From the NCBI GenBank assembly GCA_015207585.1, contig JADEWQ010000007.1, positions 1 to 64,000 on the forward strand: a stretch of DNA of 64,000 nt, in the 5' to 3' direction. Source of the stretch: Pleurocapsales cyanobacterium LEGE 06147 (GTDB lineage Bacteria > Cyanobacteriota > Cyanobacteriia > Cyanobacteriales > Xenococcaceae). The position numbers were made by a program, and so were the translations under genes. The notes under the pieces were generated by a model. It was not told the DNA's origin, did no database searches, and saw nothing but the letters and a program-made list of their open reading frames with translations. Below are positions 458 to 8,455 of this stretch, piece after piece; within the stretch, counting starts at the first letter, position 1, and every line of letters starts with the position of its first letter.

Positions 458-1702
458 ATGCAAAGTCCCGATAATTATTGGTACGCTACCTTAACTTTGT
501 GCGTACCTTTTTCTGAGGAAAGCCGCGAGTCTGGTCAATATTGCCTATCACCAACGAAAACTACAGTTATTGGTCGTTCTCCAGAGTGTCAGGTTGCTTT
601 AAATCCTCATAAATACGTCACTGTATCGCGACGGCATGCAGAGATCGAGCTAGTTCCCAGCGAACCCGAAGCTTATTGGGAAATTAGAGATCTCGGAACA
701 ATTAACGGTACTTTGGTTAACGAAATACAGATTACCAACCGTCATCGTCTAGAATCAGGCGATCGCATTACTCTAGGTTTACAAGGACCGGAATTTATTT
801 TTGAATGCCAGACTTTAAATACAACGGTTGCAATAGAAATACCAAAAACAGAACAAGTTGCTTCCATTGCTAAATCTGCTGTAGAGCAATCTAGCAAAAC
901 CGTTTCAGAAACAAAGCAATCTGTTTTAGCATCTTCGGTTCAAGAAATTGAAAAACCCAAGCCTGCTAAGTCTTCGTCAGTTAACACTCAAAAAACTGGA
1001 GTAAAATCAGATCGATCGGCTATTATTTCCTCAGAATCAACATCAGCAAAAACACAAAAAAACGACCAGTCGTCAATATCTCAAAAAGCTACTAATGGTT
1101 CCGACAATAAACAAGCAAATTTAACAGCTCAAACTCCCGATCTCAAACAAACAGCAGCCAATGCTACTAAAACTGGCAAAACGATTTGGAATTTAATTGC
1201 AAGAAAGGATTTGTGCCAACTGCCAGGTCATACAGGGGGAGTCAAAACCCTAGCATTTAGTTCTGACGAACAAACTCTTGCCAGTGCAGGCGCAGATAAG
1301 ACCATTAAAATTTGGGATTTGGCTAACCAGGAAGAAAAAATTACTTTGACTGGTCATAAACTGGCGGTCAATGCTTTAGCATTTAGTTCTGACGGACAAA
1401 CTCTTGCCAGTGCAGGCGCAGATAAGACCATTAAAATTTGGGATTTGGCTAACCAGGAAGAAAAAATTACTTTGACTGGTCATAAACTAGTAGTTAACGC
1501 TCTGATATTTAGTCCGGACGGACAAACTCTTGCCAGTGCGAGTGCAGATAAAACCGTTCGGTTGTGGCTGCTGGCAACAGGAGAGGAAATATTGGCGATC
1601 GCTATTCCTGCTTGGCAAGTTGGTTCAATAGCAATTGGTTCTGACGGAAAAACGTTAGCTGGCAGTAACGAGGATGGCGCGATCCGATTGTGGCAGCTTT
1701 AA
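458..1702 (+). CDS. FHA domain protein with C-terminal WD40 repeats
   Basis: A 414-residue predicted cytoplasmic adaptor. Residues about 36-115 form an FHA phosphothreonine-binding domain: IGRS, then SRRHAEI, then a GTINGTLVN loop. Residues about 140-245 are a low-complexity Ser/Thr/Lys/Gln linker. From about residue 255 four WD40-like repeats follow (GHTGGVKTLAFS, then IKIWDL). Four blades are too few for a closed seven-blade propeller, so it may be truncated, oligomeric, or a shortened array. FHA domains read kinase output, and a Ser/Thr kinase (5333-7441) lies in the same run of + strand genes, so it is a plausible partner. It begins with ATG after an AT-rich leader. Confidence 0.88.
   Translation: MQSPDNYWYATLTLCVPFSEESRESGQYCLSPTKTTVIGRSPECQVALNPHKYVTVSRRHAEIELVPSEPEAYWEIRDLGTINGTLVNEIQITNRHRLESGDRITLGLQGPEFIFECQTLNTTVAIEIPKTEQVASIAKSAVEQSSKTVSETKQSVLASSVQEIEKPKPAKSSSVNTQKTGVKSDRSAIISSESTSAKTQKNDQSSISQKATNGSDNKQANLTAQTPDLKQTAANATKTGKTIWNLIARKDLCQLPGHTGGVKTLAFSSDEQTLASAGADKTIKIWDLANQEEKITLTGHKLAVNALAFSSDGQTLASAGADKTIKIWDLANQEEKITLTGHKLVVNALIFSPDGQTLASASADKTVRLWLLATGEEILAIAIPAWQVGSIAIGSDGKTLAGSNEDGAIRLWQL
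1251..1489 (+). repeat. Near-identical WD40 repeat units at DNA level
   Basis: Bases 1251-1363 recur at 1377-1489 with an offset of 126 bp (42 codons, one WD40 unit). I find one difference in the compared stretch, at 1269 (A versus G). A third unit from about 1500 is diverged. This implies very recent duplication or gene conversion of one blade. Confidence 0.8.
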
Positions 1703-1749
1703 CTTGAACTGCCAACAGTCTTTTCATACGTTTAGCCTATTCTACGGCT

Positions 1750-2853
1750 ATGATTAAATATCTTTTCGGTTATCAAACTTGGCGGTTAGTGCTTTGGTGT
1801 GGACTAACATTTTTATTATGGGCTAATTCAGCTCGCTCAGAAGAATTATCTAAATCCTTGCGAGTTGGAACTAAACCTTTTGCTCCTTTTGCTTTTGTCC
1901 AAAATGGTCAGTATATTGGCTTTAGCATTGATTTGTGGCGTGCTATTGCCGAGGAATTAGACATTAAATACGAACTTTATGGGGAGAAAAGTGTCAGCGA
2001 TTTACTTGATTCGGTAAGTTCTGGCAATACCGATGTAGCGATCGCCGGCATTACCATTACTGCTAAGCGGGAAAAAGCAGTGGACTTCTCTCATTCTTTT
2101 TTTGAATCAGGACTGCAAATTTTGGTTCCTCTTCACTCTTCTTCTCCAGTACCTACTTTTTTGTGGCTCGTCTTTTCTCCTATTCTTTTAGAAACGATAG
2201 GTATACTGTCGCTAGTCATTGTTTTGTCTGCTCATCTATTGTGGTTTTTTGAACGAAAAAATAATTCAGAAATGTTTCCTAAAAATTATTTTTCTGGAAT
2301 TTGAGAAGCTTGTTGGTGGTCAGTGGTTACTGTTGTCACAGTAGGCTATGGAGATAAAACACCAAAAGGAATAGCGGGACGTTTAATTGCCACAATCTGG
2401 ATGTTTACTGGTGTCTTGCTGGTCTCTTATTTCACTGCTTCAGTTAGTTCGGCTCTTACTGTTCGGCGTTTAGAAGATGTAATTGACAGTCCCGAAAGCT
2501 TAAATGGAAAAAAAGTAGCTACAGTAAAAGGTAGTACAGCCGCAGAATATTTAACTAATCGTCCTATTAAGGTTATCGAGTTCGATGCCATTCAAGATGC
2601 TTTTAACTCTTTAGAAGAAGATCGGGTAGAGGCAGTTGTTTATGACTCTCCTATACTAAAATATTATGCTTCTAATGAAGGTGCCGACAGAGTAAAAGTA
2701 GTAGGACCAGTATTTGCCAAACAAAGTTATGGAATTGCACTCAAGCAGGAAAGTCCCTATCGAGAGCTAATTAATCAAGCTCTACTCAGCCTTCAAGAAA
2801 AAGGTACTTATGCCGAACTTTATCAGAAATGGTTTGGTCAAATTTATGAGTAA
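1750..2853 (+). pseudogene. GluR0-type glutamate-receptor K+ channel, interrupted by one TGA
   Basis: Two frames, 1750-2304 and 2305-2853, are in the same phase and separated only by TGA at 2302-2304. Read through, they give a 367-residue prokaryotic ionotropic glutamate receptor: signal peptide (1-30), first half of a periplasmic amino-acid-binding fold, membrane helix M1 (about 140-165), pore loop with TVGYGD filter (2338-2355), M2, then the second ligand-binding half ending KWFG. The stop falls between M1 and the pore helix, just before EACWW, where Trp or Leu would fit and be one base away (TGG or TTA). The downstream half has only a weak GTG at 2323 and would lack half the ligand site. 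This is a single nonsense mutation, a sequencing error, or readthrough. Confidence 0.85.
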
Positions 2854-2900
2854 TTTTCTAACTTTTGAGAGCAATTTTTAATAGTTCTGAGAGGTTATAA

Positions 2901-5051
2901 ATGGCACCAAAAGCGGACAAGCTGAAACAAACTCTCGAAAATGTTCAGCTTTTTTTTAAAAAAAACGAATATGAAAATTTTGAAAGTATAGCCAAAGAAT
3001 TAGAGAAACTACAAACTCGATTGGAACAAAAAAAGCTAACTATTCAAATAGTCAGTCAAAGTCCAATTTTAGCTCAAGCATTATTTGATTTTATCAAAAC
3101 TAACAAGACTCTACTAGAGTTTTCTCAACTCAAATTTAATACTCTTCCTAAAACTCCTGAAAAAATTAAACCACAACAGTTTCCTAGTCTTAAACTGAGG
3201 CGATCGCGAGAAAATATAACTGATATATATCAATACTATGAACTTTCAGAAAAAGAGCAGTTAATTGGCAGAGATCCAAAAAGTTTTATACCTATAAATT
3301 CCAAACATTATCGAGGGGTTTCCTGGAATCATGCGATTATTAAAGCTGTTTTAGGTGAAGGCAATCTAGTTCAATGGGAAATATGGGATCTTAAGAGTAC
3401 TAATGGTACTTTTATTAATGGAAAGCGAATAAAAAAGTGTCAAAGACTGCAACTAAAAGACAAAATTACTTTAGGTTCTTCCAAACCCAGTCGCGCTATT
3501 GCAGAACTGATCTTTGACTTTCATAACGATCCTTCAGAACCGAACAGCGATTACTGGGAAATTATTGATTGCGATCTGCTCTTATTGGCGATCGATACTC
3601 GACAGAATCTTTCTACACAAGAACAAGAGTTTATTAAAAATATTGATAGTACTTCCATCTCTAGACAATTTTTGGTTGCCGATCTTCCAGATCCTCAAAC
3701 AGAGGAAATAAATGTAAAAAATGCAGAAGCTAATTTAGCTCAATTAGAAAACTGGCTGAAAAATGAAGCTACAAATTCTAGTTTTGAATTAGTTCCTTTA
3801 TTTCTTAAACCTTATTACGATCGAAACCAGAATAAAGAAATCGAATCTTGCTTTCAAAAAAAACAAGAGCATTTTTTTAAGTCTTTAGATAATTTAATTA
3901 AAGGTCAGCCAGAAAATTTATTAGCTAATCGCCTTACTGTTAAGCTTATCCAAATTTTAGAACCTGTAGAACCTATTTTAGAGCGTCACCAAAAAGCACT
4001 TTCAGAAAAAATCGATCGAGAAAAACAAAAATTAGAAGAACTAACCAATATTGAATTAAAAGGAGCTGTCAAACAAGCTATTAATCAAATTAATGAAGAT
4101 AAGGATAAGTTTTTTAAGCAGGTTAAACTAGAGCTAGCTCAAGCAAAAGGCGGTTTGTTAGATAATTATAGTAAGTATAGTATTATTTATAAAATACAAG
4201 AATTAGTCGAAAGTTTGAAACTCAAAATTTTAATCAAAAATGGACAAAAATATATTCGTTTGAGCGATGAAGCGAATATTGAATCTCAAGATATTAATAA
4301 GATTTTAATTGTTTTTTGTACTTCTTATTTAAAAGAATGGATAAAAGAAGAATGGAAAAAAATCTGTGAGGTTTATAATAATGGTGGATTAAATGCTTTG
4401 CTACAGAGGGCTTACGCAGCGGTCGATCTTATTCCTTCTCTACTACAAGAATCACCTTTTGCCAGTCCTCAATCTATAAATATGCATAATATTTTTTTAA
4501 TTTCATTTGCTGGAATTAGCTGCGAACTACCCCACAAACAAATATCGTTGGGAAGTTACATAATGAAGCAACTAAGAAGCCAAATGATGCAAATTATGAT
4601 GATGCTGACCCTTGGGCTTTCTCTTATTGGTGTTTCAGCTAATAAAAATCAGCTTATGAAAGATCTTTCTAGTATTTTTAATCAACAACCTTGGATATTT
4701 GGATTGGTAGTTTCTGTAGTTACCGTGTTGCTAGTTAATAGTTACAGAAAAGAGAACGACAATAAAATTGAAGAAGTAGAACAAAAATTAAAAAAAGATG
4801 TAGCAAATTATTATCAGTCTTTTACGAAAAATTTGCTTGAAAAGATAATTCAAGATTTAAATTTAGCTTTAGAAGTAGAAGATAATAAAATCAATAATTC
4901 TCTAAAGCTGGTAAGCGATATGTATAATAATTATATTTTAGAATTAGAAAAGCAACAAACAGAAATCAAGAAGAATCTTGAAGAATATAAAAATCAACAA
5001 AGAAATTTAGAAAAAGATCTGTCTGAGTTCAACAAACTTAAACGTTTATAA
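2901..5051 (+). CDS. FHA protein with degenerate dynamin-like domain and two membrane helices
   Basis: A 716-residue protein. After a short helical start, residues about 120-200 form an FHA domain (LIGRD, GVSWNHAII, STNGTFINGKRI). Flanking segments resemble a dynamin-like GTPase: IQIVSQSP sits where a P-loop would be but lacks GxxxxGK[ST], and DCDLLLLAID resembles the strand before switch II. Residues 340-540 are helical. Two hydrophobic helices (about 560-580 and 596-616) form a hairpin, and the last 90 residues are charged coiled coil. This suggests an FHA-guided membrane-associated pseudo-GTPase, which is inference. Codon use is very AT-rich, like the neighbouring kinase and unlike chlP. 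It lies 47 bp after the broken channel gene. Confidence 0.65.
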   Translation: MAPKADKLKQTLENVQLFFKKNEYENFESIAKELEKLQTRLEQKKLTIQIVSQSPILAQALFDFIKTNKTLLEFSQLKFNTLPKTPEKIKPQQFPSLKLRRSRENITDIYQYYELSEKEQLIGRDPKSFIPINSKHYRGVSWNHAIIKAVLGEGNLVQWEIWDLKSTNGTFINGKRIKKCQRLQLKDKITLGSSKPSRAIAELIFDFHNDPSEPNSDYWEIIDCDLLLLAIDTRQNLSTQEQEFIKNIDSTSISRQFLVADLPDPQTEEINVKNAEANLAQLENWLKNEATNSSFELVPLFLKPYYDRNQNKEIESCFQKKQEHFFKSLDNLIKGQPENLLANRLTVKLIQILEPVEPILERHQKALSEKIDREKQKLEELTNIELKGAVKQAINQINEDKDKFFKQVKLELAQAKGGLLDNYSKYSIIYKIQELVESLKLKILIKNGQKYIRLSDEANIESQDINKILIVFCTSYLKEWIKEEWKKICEVYNNGGLNALLQRAYAAVDLIPSLLQESPFASPQSINMHNIFLISFAGISCELPHKQISLGSYIMKQLRSQMMQIMMMLTLGLSLIGVSANKNQLMKDLSSIFNQQPWIFGLVVSVVTVLLVNSYRKENDNKIEEVEQKLKKDVANYYQSFTKNLLEKIIQDLNLALEVEDNKINNSLKLVSDMYNNYILELEKQQTEIKKNLEEYKNQQRNLEKDLSEFNKLKRL

Positions 5052-5332
5052 TAACTTTAAAAACTGAAACATAAATGAATTTATAAAAACTCGCTTAAAA
5101 TTGTACTCTTACAATTTTATATATGCATTTTTGTAGATTTTGCTTTAGTTTTACTCAAAAGTTATTTGATTATGTATGTATATATATAGAACTTGAAATA
5201 AAATTTTTGAAAAAAATAAGCTGATTTTTGAATTAACTTTTATTGTTAATTGTTGTTTTATTATACATTTAGTAAATTTTATGGCAAAATTTCTTTATTC
5301 TAAAAATAACAACTTAAGTTTAAAGTGTAATT

Positions 5333-7441
5333 ATGCAAGGACAACTATTACGTTCTCGCTATCGCATTCTCCAATATTTAGCAAAAGGAGGATTCGGTAA
5401 AACCTACCTTGCAGAGGATATACTACTTCCAGGAGATAATAGATGTGTTGTCAAACAACTATATCCGGCTGTTGATAGTCCTAAGATTTTAGAGATAGCA
5501 AGACGTTTATTTAAAAAAGAAGCCGAAGCATTGAGAAAATTAGGAAATTACGACCAGATTCCTCAACTTCTCGCTTATTTTGAAGAAAAACAGAAATTTT
5601 ATCTAGTACAGCAATATATTGACGGTCATACTCTCAAGAAAGAACTAGTTCCAGGTCAAACTTGGACTGAAGCAAAAGTCATCGAATTTTGTCAAGATTG
5701 TTTGCAAATTTTAGATTTTATTCACACTCAAGGGATAATTCATCGTGATGTCAAGCCAGATAACCTTATTCGTCGTCGGCAAGATAACAAGCTAGTGTTA
5801 GTAGATTTTGGCACGGTTAAAGAGGTTATTTCAGCTCAAACTCAAATGATTCCTTCTACAGTAGCGGTGGGAACGAAAGGCTATATGCCCACGGAACAAG
5901 CAATGGGCAAACCGCGTATCAATAGCGATATTTATGCTTTGGGCATTATTTGCATTCAAGCTTTAACGGGAGTTCACCCCATAAAATTTCAAGAGGATGA
6001 AAACGGCGATATTCTCTGGCAATCTCAAGCAAATGTTAGCCCTCAACTAGCTGCGATTTTATCGAAGATGGTACGCTATCATTTCAAAGATCGCTATCAG
6101 TCAGCCACAGAAGTTTTAAGAGAACTTAATTGTCTCGGCAGTAATCCTTCTGTTGTTCCAATTAGCCGAGGAGTTACCCAAACAGTTCAATATACTCCTA
6201 CAACCCAGCTCAATTCTTCTGAGTTTAAACATTCTGCTTTTGCTTCAACTAGGAACCAATCTAAGCCAGCTAACCTTTCCAGTATTAATAATTCATCTAA
6301 CGCTCAATCATCTCCACCTCTTCCTAACACCACGGCACAATCTTTAACAAGTAAAACTTCAAGTTCTTTAGAAGATTCCCAAGCTTTGGAGAAAACTTCC
6401 AGGAATGTCCCCTTGACTGATACTCAGTCAAAATCTGTTAGTCAACAAAATTCTACTCCACCTTCAAAAAGCGATCGCTCTCAGTCTTCAAAAAACTCTC
6501 AAATTAATTTTTTTTCCAAGTTATCTAACTTTATTAAATCTTCTACAGTAGCTACTGTAGGAGTAGCAGTCATTATCGGAGCAATGGCAACAGGAGGAAT
6601 GTATCTGTTTAAACAACAGACAGAAAAAGAAGTTGAAAAAATACTTAGTGAACTCAATAATTTATACGCAAAACAAAAATACCAAGAGTGTTACGACCAA
6701 GCGGAAAATAAAAAAACTCAAGAAGCAGGAGTTTCTGACCAAATAATACAAGAATGGATTAATAAATGTGGTCTGGGTGTCGCTCAAAGAAAAGCTGAGA
6801 TTTATGACTATGCCTTAGCGATCGAAATAGCTAAGAAACTAAATAATGTTACTAATTCCCAGGAAATTAAGCAGCATATTGATGATTGGTCTAACAAAAT
6901 TTTGGAAATAGCGACTGCAACTTATGAGGAAAAGGGCAATTTGGAAGAGGCAGTGCAGATGATCTTAACCACAATTCCAGAAGATAGTGCAGTCAGAAAA
7001 AAAGCATTAGACCTCAAACAAACATGGGAAATAGAAAATGAAACTAACAAAAAGCTAATTTCTACTGCTAACAAAGCACTGGAAGAAAAAAGATGGCAAG
7101 AAGCCAAAAGTGAAGCAGAAAAAGTAAGTGGTTCTGATTATTGGAAGCAGCAAGCAAAAGCAGTTATTGACGAGGCAGAAAAAGCTATTGAGTCTAGTAT
7201 TTTACCTAAGTCACAGCCAACTACTCCTATTCCTAATTCCTCCAACCAAAACAGAGCCTCTACTTCTCATCAAAACTCCAATCAAACAAATTCTAGTAGA
7301 GTAGTTACTCCTATTCCTAAGCAGCCTGACATCACCCCATCTGAGCAGCTCAAACCACAATCCGGTATTATGCCACTGGATAAATTTGTAGACCCCTCAC
7401 CAAATAATACGCCTGGAGAAGACTCAGATTGGGCACTTTAA
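5333..7441 (+). CDS. Transmembrane Ser/Thr protein kinase
   Basis: A 702-residue eukaryotic-type kinase of the common cyanobacterial kind. The N-terminal catalytic domain (about 9-270) has glycine loop GGFGKTY, Lys41 in VVKQLYP, HRDVKPDN (His137) and DFG (158-160) with an intact activation segment ending PTEQA. A Ser/Thr/Gln-rich linker follows, then one membrane helix (about 403-424). The outer part (430-620) is made of helical TPR-like units (YAKQKYQECYDQAE), then a Pro/Ser/Asn-rich tail. It should phosphorylate FHA-read targets, and two FHA proteins lie just upstream. The 281-bp leader (5052-5332) is about 80% AT with no gene; no clear ribosome site precedes the ATG. Confidence 0.93.
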   Translation: MQGQLLRSRYRILQYLAKGGFGKTYLAEDILLPGDNRCVVKQLYPAVDSPKILEIARRLFKKEAEALRKLGNYDQIPQLLAYFEEKQKFYLVQQYIDGHTLKKELVPGQTWTEAKVIEFCQDCLQILDFIHTQGIIHRDVKPDNLIRRRQDNKLVLVDFGTVKEVISAQTQMIPSTVAVGTKGYMPTEQAMGKPRINSDIYALGIICIQALTGVHPIKFQEDENGDILWQSQANVSPQLAAILSKMVRYHFKDRYQSATEVLRELNCLGSNPSVVPISRGVTQTVQYTPTTQLNSSEFKHSAFASTRNQSKPANLSSINNSSNAQSSPPLPNTTAQSLTSKTSSSLEDSQALEKTSRNVPLTDTQSKSVSQQNSTPPSKSDRSQSSKNSQINFFSKLSNFIKSSTVATVGVAVIIGAMATGGMYLFKQQTEKEVEKILSELNNLYAKQKYQECYDQAENKKTQEAGVSDQIIQEWINKCGLGVAQRKAEIYDYALAIEIAKKLNNVTNSQEIKQHIDDWSNKILEIATATYEEKGNLEEAVQMILTTIPEDSAVRKKALDLKQTWEIENETNKKLISTANKALEEKRWQEAKSEAEKVSGSDYWKQQAKAVIDEAEKAIESSILPKSQPTTPIPNSSNQNRASTSHQNSNQTNSSRVVTPIPKQPDITPSEQLKPQSGIMPLDKFVDPSPNNTPGEDSDWAL

Positions 7442-7510: not shown

Positions 7511-8455
7511 TTAACGTCTATCTTCGATTACATAAACATCAGGACGACTATAACCCGTTTGATTGGGTTTGTGCACCGAGACGGAAAGGAATTGAATGCG
7601 AAACTTTCGTGCTATCATTCGGCGGTAAGCATCGACGCAAGCTGTATCTACGCCAGCCACAAGAGAAGACATTCCCAGGATTATGGTCAAGGTTTCGCAC
7701 TCATCGATTAACTGCTCAAATGCTTCGGCTGATTTGGCTGCTCCCAACTTAACATAACAGTTTCCCTTGGCTGCTTCTGACCCTGCCCCATAGTGACAAA
7801 TGGCAAACCCGATTAATCCTGTATCATCCCAGACAAATAAAGTATCTCCAAGGGAGCGTTGTTGTACGAGGAGAATTTCTCTCCGCCAATCCAATCCCTC
7901 ATAAATCTTGTCTGTTAACTGATAGGAAGCATTTAAACTCACTGCTTGTTGCTCGGGGGAGAGTTGAGAATACCGCTTGGCTTTTAGGGTTTGTGATTGA
8001 GTACTGGAGATAGCTTTACTACATAAAGCAATTAAAAATCGGGGGTATGCACCAAATTTTCCGTAAAGGTAGATATGTTTGGGGCTGTTAGCATGGGTAC
8101 AGAAGACAATCTGTTGACTTCCCCATTCATCGAACTTTTTCCATGAGGCACTCATCAATTGAGAACCAATACCCCGATCCCAATAATCAGGGTGGGTAAC
8201 AATGGGACCAAACCCCGCACAACTACCCTAATTAGCTACCATACAGTAACCAACGAGTTTTCCGTCTGCTTTGGCAGCAAAGGCGGATAAGGGATCTCGA
8301 TACCAACGAGACGTATATTCTGCTCCATTACCAAAGTCCATCGGCTCCAAAAGTCCCAAAAAAGTGCCGAAGGAAAGTCGCAAGAGTTTTTCTGCTTCTA
8401 GTAGCTCGCTTTCTTGCAGTAAACTAATTTCCACAGAATTCATGATTTTCCTCAA
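7511..8455 (-). pseudogene. GNAT N-acetyltransferase, interrupted by one TAG
   Basis: The minus-strand frame from ATG 8455 to stop 7511 is open except for TAG at 8230-8228. Read through, it gives 314 residues: an N-terminal GNAT domain with acetyl-CoA motif DRGIGSQL, then ANSPKH and a C-terminal second domain ending YVIEDRR. The stop lies in GYCMVAN-stop-GSCAGFG. Relatives I recall have an NWG motif here, so a Trp TGG changed to TAG fits. Both halves otherwise look under protein constraint, so the lesion is recent, or an error. The upstream product (75 residues) lacks the acetyl-CoA site. It is convergent with the kinase gene, 69 bp away. Confidence 0.82.

Follow-up and report, generated by a model that had tools for sequence, protein, structure and literature searches.

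A cluster of four same-strand genes at one end of a contig of Pleurocapsales cyanobacterium LEGE 06147 combines a transmembrane Ser/Thr kinase, two FHA-domain proteins, and a GluR0-type K+ channel, raising the question of whether these genes belong to one functional module, and, if so, in what state that module survives in this strain. The window analyzed here comprises the first 64 kb (64,000 nucleotides) of contig C188 (79,196 bp), from a draft assembly of 6.23 Mb in 244 contigs; base 1 of the window is also the contig start, so the cluster is incomplete at this edge. ORF calls and Pfam searches confirmed that the four genes placed at 458-7441 by a preliminary description of this DNA are real and correctly delimited (Table 1).

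Table 1. Features of the FHA-kinase cluster, in coordinates of the window
Feature	Position	Strand	Evidence
FHA-WD40 protein, 414 aa	458..1702	+	Pfam FHA 3e-16, WD40 1.4e-42
GluR0-type ligand-gated K+ channel, probable pseudogene	1750..2853	+	SBP_bac_3 and Ion_trans_2, one in each half
In-frame TGA inside the GluR0 frame	2302..2304	+	Homolog alignment, codon-bias scan
FHA716, 716 aa: FHA in a dynamin-like frame without P-loop	2901..5051	+	Pfam FHA 2.8e-14
Transmembrane Ser/Thr kinase, 702 aa	5333..7441	+	Pfam Pkinase 1.7e-33

Signaling genes and an interrupted channel

The intergenic gaps across the cluster measure 47, 47, and 281 bp, and, because the 281-bp gap is AT-rich, the kinase gene may have a separate promoter; scores from promoter scans of the cluster were not above those of shuffled sequence. 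The FHA-WD40 protein contains the GR, S-x-x-H, and NG motifs in its FHA domain (residues 36-107) and has four WD-type repeats at the C-terminal end. Two of these repeats arose by recent tandem duplication: the adjacent 126-bp WD40 units at 1243-1494 of this gene are identical at 118 of 126 bases. The kinase matches the Hanks-type fold, has one hydrophobic span (residues ~400-425), and retains the catalytic motifs HRDVKPDN and DFG, suggesting by motif that it is catalytically competent. With Pfam FHA matches above cut-off in both FHA716 and the FHA-WD40 protein, the earlier pairing of a membrane kinase with two FHA proteins holds. A transmembrane Hanks-type kinase beside motif-bearing FHA proteins is reminiscent of bacterial STPK-FHA signaling with OdhI/GarA- and FhaB-type readers; in contrast to those systems, one predicted FHA reader here is joined to a pseudo-dynamin and the other to WD40 repeats, and the module includes a coiled-coil operon and a channel.

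The channel claimed for this locus was only partly borne out. A GluR0-type ligand-binding domain split around a K+-channel pore with a TVGYGD filter is encoded, but not in a single intact ORF: two ORFs in one frame (1750-2304 and 2323-2853) are separated by the TGA. Both sides of this codon align with GluR0 homologs, with 73% identity to the intact channel of Hyellaceae CSU_1_1 (locus L040), and its position is occupied by Trp in four of five aligned homologous channels and by Val in the other. When ~92 kb of the genome was scanned for codon bias, the GluR0 TGA was among very few internal stops flanked on each side by coding signal; alternative decoding of TGA or TAG was rejected because internal stops are rare in this sequence. 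Judged from the alignment and the scan, the strain probably carries GluR0 as a pseudogene. A further internal TGA, likewise flanked by coding-like signal, lies outside the window at position 72608 of C188 (minus strand). GluR0 of Synechocystis (slr1257), which acts in the control of cell volume during KCl shock (PMC13099474), resembles the window copy in its split ligand-binding domain around a K+ pore and its TVGYGD filter; the window copy differs in being broken by a TGA and in belonging to a clade that adjoins the coiled-coil operon described below.

Common origin of the four genes had been proposed from a shared AT-rich codon use unlike that of the nearby chlP. Their GC3 is indeed low (0.29, 0.26, 0.22, and 0.27 in gene order, versus 0.348 +/- 0.041 for 30 other window genes, among which they fall at the 10th percentile or lower), but chlP, with a GC3 of 0.41, is itself near the upper extreme of window genes and makes for a flattering comparison. 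The L040 copies of these genes have GC3 values of 0.29 to 0.33, nearer to their surrounding genes. The low GC3 is consistent with a shared or foreign origin, and a gene set under different constraint fits it equally well. Next to the cluster, an ORF that looks acetyltransferase-like (7511-8442, minus strand) has an in-frame TAG at 8228-8230 ('MVAN*GSCAGFGP'), and the half downstream of this TAG had no Pfam match.

FHA716 and dynamin-like proteins

In FHA716, an FHA domain that looks intact lies at residues ~113-196, hydrophobic spans occur at residues 562-580 and 596-616, and the C terminus is coiled-coil; residues G123, R124, S141, H144, N168, and G174 are invariant across an eight-member alignment of the family. 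This protein had been described as a pseudo-dynamin with a guessed role in membrane remodeling. When a profile of the eight members was compared by hhalign to one of 14 cyanobacterial P-loop dynamin-like proteins, the local match had 96.2% probability (E 2.7e-9) and the global match of the part following the FHA domain had 98.2%, against no more than 11% for control alignments (reversed, shuffled, coiled-coil, kinase, and channel). The local match covers the latter half of the G domain together with the initial helices of the stalk, and support for dynamin membership is moderate because it begins after the FHA domain; single dynamin sequences scored far below the profile. The P-loop (GxxxxGKS/T) and the GTPase motifs are absent in all eight members, and FHA716 was therefore classed as a dynamin-like frame, not as a GTPase. 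The profile comparison suggests that FHA716 is likely to be related to dynamin-like proteins and, given this relationship, it is very likely GTPase-inactive. The pseudo-dynamin assignment is thus in agreement with the hhalign scores, the missing P-loop, and an FHA domain in the N-terminal half of the frame, and the idea of membrane remodeling gains support at the profile level.

Cyanobacterial dynamin-like proteins such as SynDLP (PMC10104851; reviewed in PMC5827413) share with FHA716 profile similarity from the G4 half through the stalk, a comparable length, and hydrophobic membrane segments at nearly the same place. FHA716 departs from them in having no P-loop and in carrying an FHA domain in the N-terminal half of the frame, and no nucleotide cycle is expected of it. 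A PDB profile search with FHA716 returned only FHA domains and chance matches, sequence searches likewise returned FHA domains only, and an AlphaFold model from a two-sequence alignment (pLDDT 38) was too poor for a fold search. A mixed set of Dynamin_N-positive ORFs (dynB) gave no match to FHA716; this set mixes sequences that do not form one clean family, and it serves as a loose control only. The ~450-aa FHA proteins that are widespread in the phylum sample match FHA716 in the FHA domain alone and represent a different family. A 542-aa distant relative of FHA716, unlinked to the module, is encoded at L039 9144-10772 in G070, a genome from the family of the window genome; Pfam found no FHA domain in it, and the phylum sample contained no second copy.

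A gene set that recurs across cyanobacterial families

Full-length FHA716 is present in eight of 386 cyanobacterial genomes, namely the window genome (G000), G109, G119, G151, G185, G187, G368, and G382, where the G368 gene is counted though frameshifted. Neighborhoods were compared in these eight genomes and at L040 (n = 9), and FHA716 was found to track a tandem operon, A-B-C-D, that encodes ~300-aa, acidic, nearly all-helical proteins with low Gly and Pro content and no signal peptide-like start. A profile search for C in the 386 genomes gave strong matches (E 2e-71 to 6e-135) in exactly the eight FHA716 genomes, and weak ones (E 1e-9 to 1e-12) in three others, two of which lie in ORFs of ~3000 codons. 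In G109, G119, and G151, FHA716 and the operon occupy separate loci. The probability of this eight-of-eight overlap by chance is ~1e-16 ignoring phylogeny and ~5e-12 at the genus level, values that overstate the evidence, as some of the eight genomes are related, with four belonging to a single family. Pairwise identities of FHA716 and C are correlated at r = 0.955.

The remaining genes follow the same set with varying regularity. At L040, GluR0, FHA-WD40, A-B-C-D, FHA716, and a kinase all lie within 12 kb (3.1-14.3 kb), with GluR0 near gene A and with a kinase adjoining FHA716 whose kinase domain is 68% identical to that of the window kinase. The best GluR0 homologs in the phylum sample adjoin gene A in divergent orientation in G187, G109, G119, and G151; the channel accompanies the module in only six of the nine genomes and may be an accessory to it. 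FHA-WD40 proteins with both domains occur in the module genomes except G185, and also in G145, which lacks the module, in a search that scored few candidates per genome and could miss further copies. Two kinase types accompany the set, and the FHA-WD40 and kinase genes are linked in most loci. Genes for COP23 secreted proteins, often with trypsin-like genes, are found in six of the nine neighborhoods, compared to one to six copies per genome. Gene order varies between genomes. The preliminary description had staked its reading on other genomes keeping these genes together, and FHA716, A-D, FHA-WD40, one or more transmembrane kinases, GluR0 of one clade, and COP23/trypsin-like proteins do form a recurrent set in several cyanobacterial families.

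Individual loci vary further. In G185, a kinase fused to WD40-like repeats (L038 11096-13219) adjoins FHA716, and Poly_export and ParA/CobQ-type genes lie between this fusion and the C-D genes. In one family, D is followed by E, the ~550-aa H, F, and G (L044 877-7987; L057 13658-17244; L059 14941-19570), helical ORFs with only generic coiled-coil matches. For A-D, Pfam, NCBIfam, and PADLOC likewise gave generic coiled-coil matches only, and an AlphaFold model of C with three paralogs (pLDDT 57) was too poor for a fold search. In composition and predicted helicity, being acidic, nearly all-helical, and low in Gly and Pro, A-D resemble the filament-forming coiled-coil-rich proteins of cyanobacteria (PMC7002697); they differ from these in having no specific family match and in forming a tandem set that tracks FHA716.

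In agreement with the earlier statement that no system with this set is known to have been described, none was found in the literature on FHA/dynamin proteins, GluR0 operons, COP23, and pseudo-GTPase dynamins, a provisional result since the sources were mostly open-access; nor did term searches within comparative-genomics papers on prokaryotic conflict and calcium systems reveal the set. Provisionally, the gene system is apparently rare and undescribed in cyanobacteria, and its novelty lies in the domain architecture, STPK-FHA signaling itself being known.

In the window genome, the coiled-coil genes are not on C188; they lie at the end of another contig, C111, where a COP23 gene and two trypsin-like genes follow D. 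D carries a TGG→TAG change at a Trp kept in all seven other genomes compared, C starts only at residue ~102, cut beside an interspersed repeat, and neither A nor B was found. The repeat, with the core GGCGAGGGTCTCCACGGAGG, occurs at G000:C111:20452-20471 and at 17 other places in the genome, and roughly half of its copies lie no farther than ~170 bp from a contig end. Together with the ORF at 7511-8442, GluR0 and D bring the internal stops in the module or next to it to three; those in GluR0 and D, the two comparable with relatives, are both Trp-to-stop changes by G-to-A. As assembled, FHA716, FHA-WD40, and the kinase are intact and the channel gene, C, and D are disrupted; the window locus looks like a partly decayed remnant of a conserved module, which is the simplest reading of its state here. 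The D gene of G187, flagged for stops by the search, proved intact on direct reading. G368 has a frameshift in FHA716 and a split kinase gene (L036 9055-11233, L045 7220-9348); therefore, module decay or sequencing error is not limited to the window strain.

Competing explanations and a possible function

Large cyanobacterial genomes commonly encode kinases, WD40 proteins, and FHA proteins, and the shifting gene order might suggest four unrelated signaling genes that share an AT-rich patch by chance; this explanation is hardly credible and already contradicted, as FHA716 occurs with C in every one of its eight genomes, even at unlinked loci, and GluR0, FHA-WD40, and the kinase are repeatedly adjacent. 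Errors of sequencing or assembly, which would mean that the module is intact in this strain, are also an unlikely source of the stops in GluR0 and D. The assembly is a draft in 244 contigs, and A and B could sit in a gap, with C breaking at the repeat that marks many contig ends; however, a Trp-to-stop change in two separate genes together with a third gene cut, where such stops are rare in ~92 kb, argues against artifact, as do the intact members, which indicate that the locus assembled well.

Other alternatives concern function. The coiled-coil proteins and pseudo-dynamin might organize the export of surface material, as envelope, secretion, or polysaccharide machinery, instead of a response to ionic stress. 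COP23 and trypsin-like secreted proteins near six of the nine loci, the Poly_export and ParA/CobQ-type genes that separate D from the kinase in G185, and a transporter for two-partner secretion close to the G151 locus would suit such a role, yet export genes of this kind appear in single genomes only, and A-D, acidic, helical, and without a signal peptide-like start, look like cytoplasmic proteins, leaving this a rather improbable alternative. An anti-phage or abortive-infection system, in which the dynamin-like protein, channel, and kinase guard or damage the membrane on infection, is more doubtful still. Dynamin-like proteins and kinases do occur in defense systems, the distribution across families is patchy, and toxin-antitoxin-like genes, read from ORF sequence, adjoin the module or lie inside it in G368 and G187. 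Against this, PADLOC gave no match for FHA716, generic kinase-domain matches for the kinase, and generic coiled coil for A-D; flanks are inconsistent between genomes, here including chlP; and searches of plasmids and viral contigs returned no matches. The defense role raised in the preliminary description therefore lacks both a specific PADLOC match and a consistent defense context in the flanks.

The reading preferred here, held tentatively and with its function inferred, is that the window locus is the partly decayed remnant of a module in which phosphothreonine controls a membrane scaffold for coiled-coil proteins and which is linked to a ligand-gated K+ channel. In such a module, the kinase would phosphorylate Thr residues in its own linker and/or in A-D, and FHA716, held in the membrane by a hydrophobic hairpin, would bind the phosphothreonine, so that phosphorylation, not GTP, would drive assembly and bring the coiled-coil proteins to the membrane. 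The FHA-WD40 protein would act as a soluble adaptor, and GluR0 and the secreted proteins could provide the outside signal and the K+/turgor output; Synechocystis GluR0 couples to K+ and turgor (PMC13099474). The likely purpose would be to adapt the envelope or the cell volume when ionic or osmotic conditions change. The original proposal, in which the output of the kinase would bring the FHA proteins to the membrane, is plausible. A bolder possibility, on balance doubtful, is that a GTPase-dead dynamin in which a phosphothreonine switch replaces the nucleotide switch would let the kinase control the assembly of a multi-protein coiled-coil membrane coat coupled to a ligand-gated K+ channel; such a membrane-cytoskeletal machine would form a class new to bacteria.

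Because FHA716 and C co-occur exactly, they supply a concrete list of targets for deletion and tagging, and, given the decay in the window strain, another genome would be preferable for experiments. If the proposed module is real, a prokaryotic glutamate-receptor homolog would gain a set of genetic partners through which its cellular role becomes testable, and FHA716 would reveal a route by which the frame of a membrane-remodeling GTPase came under kinase control.
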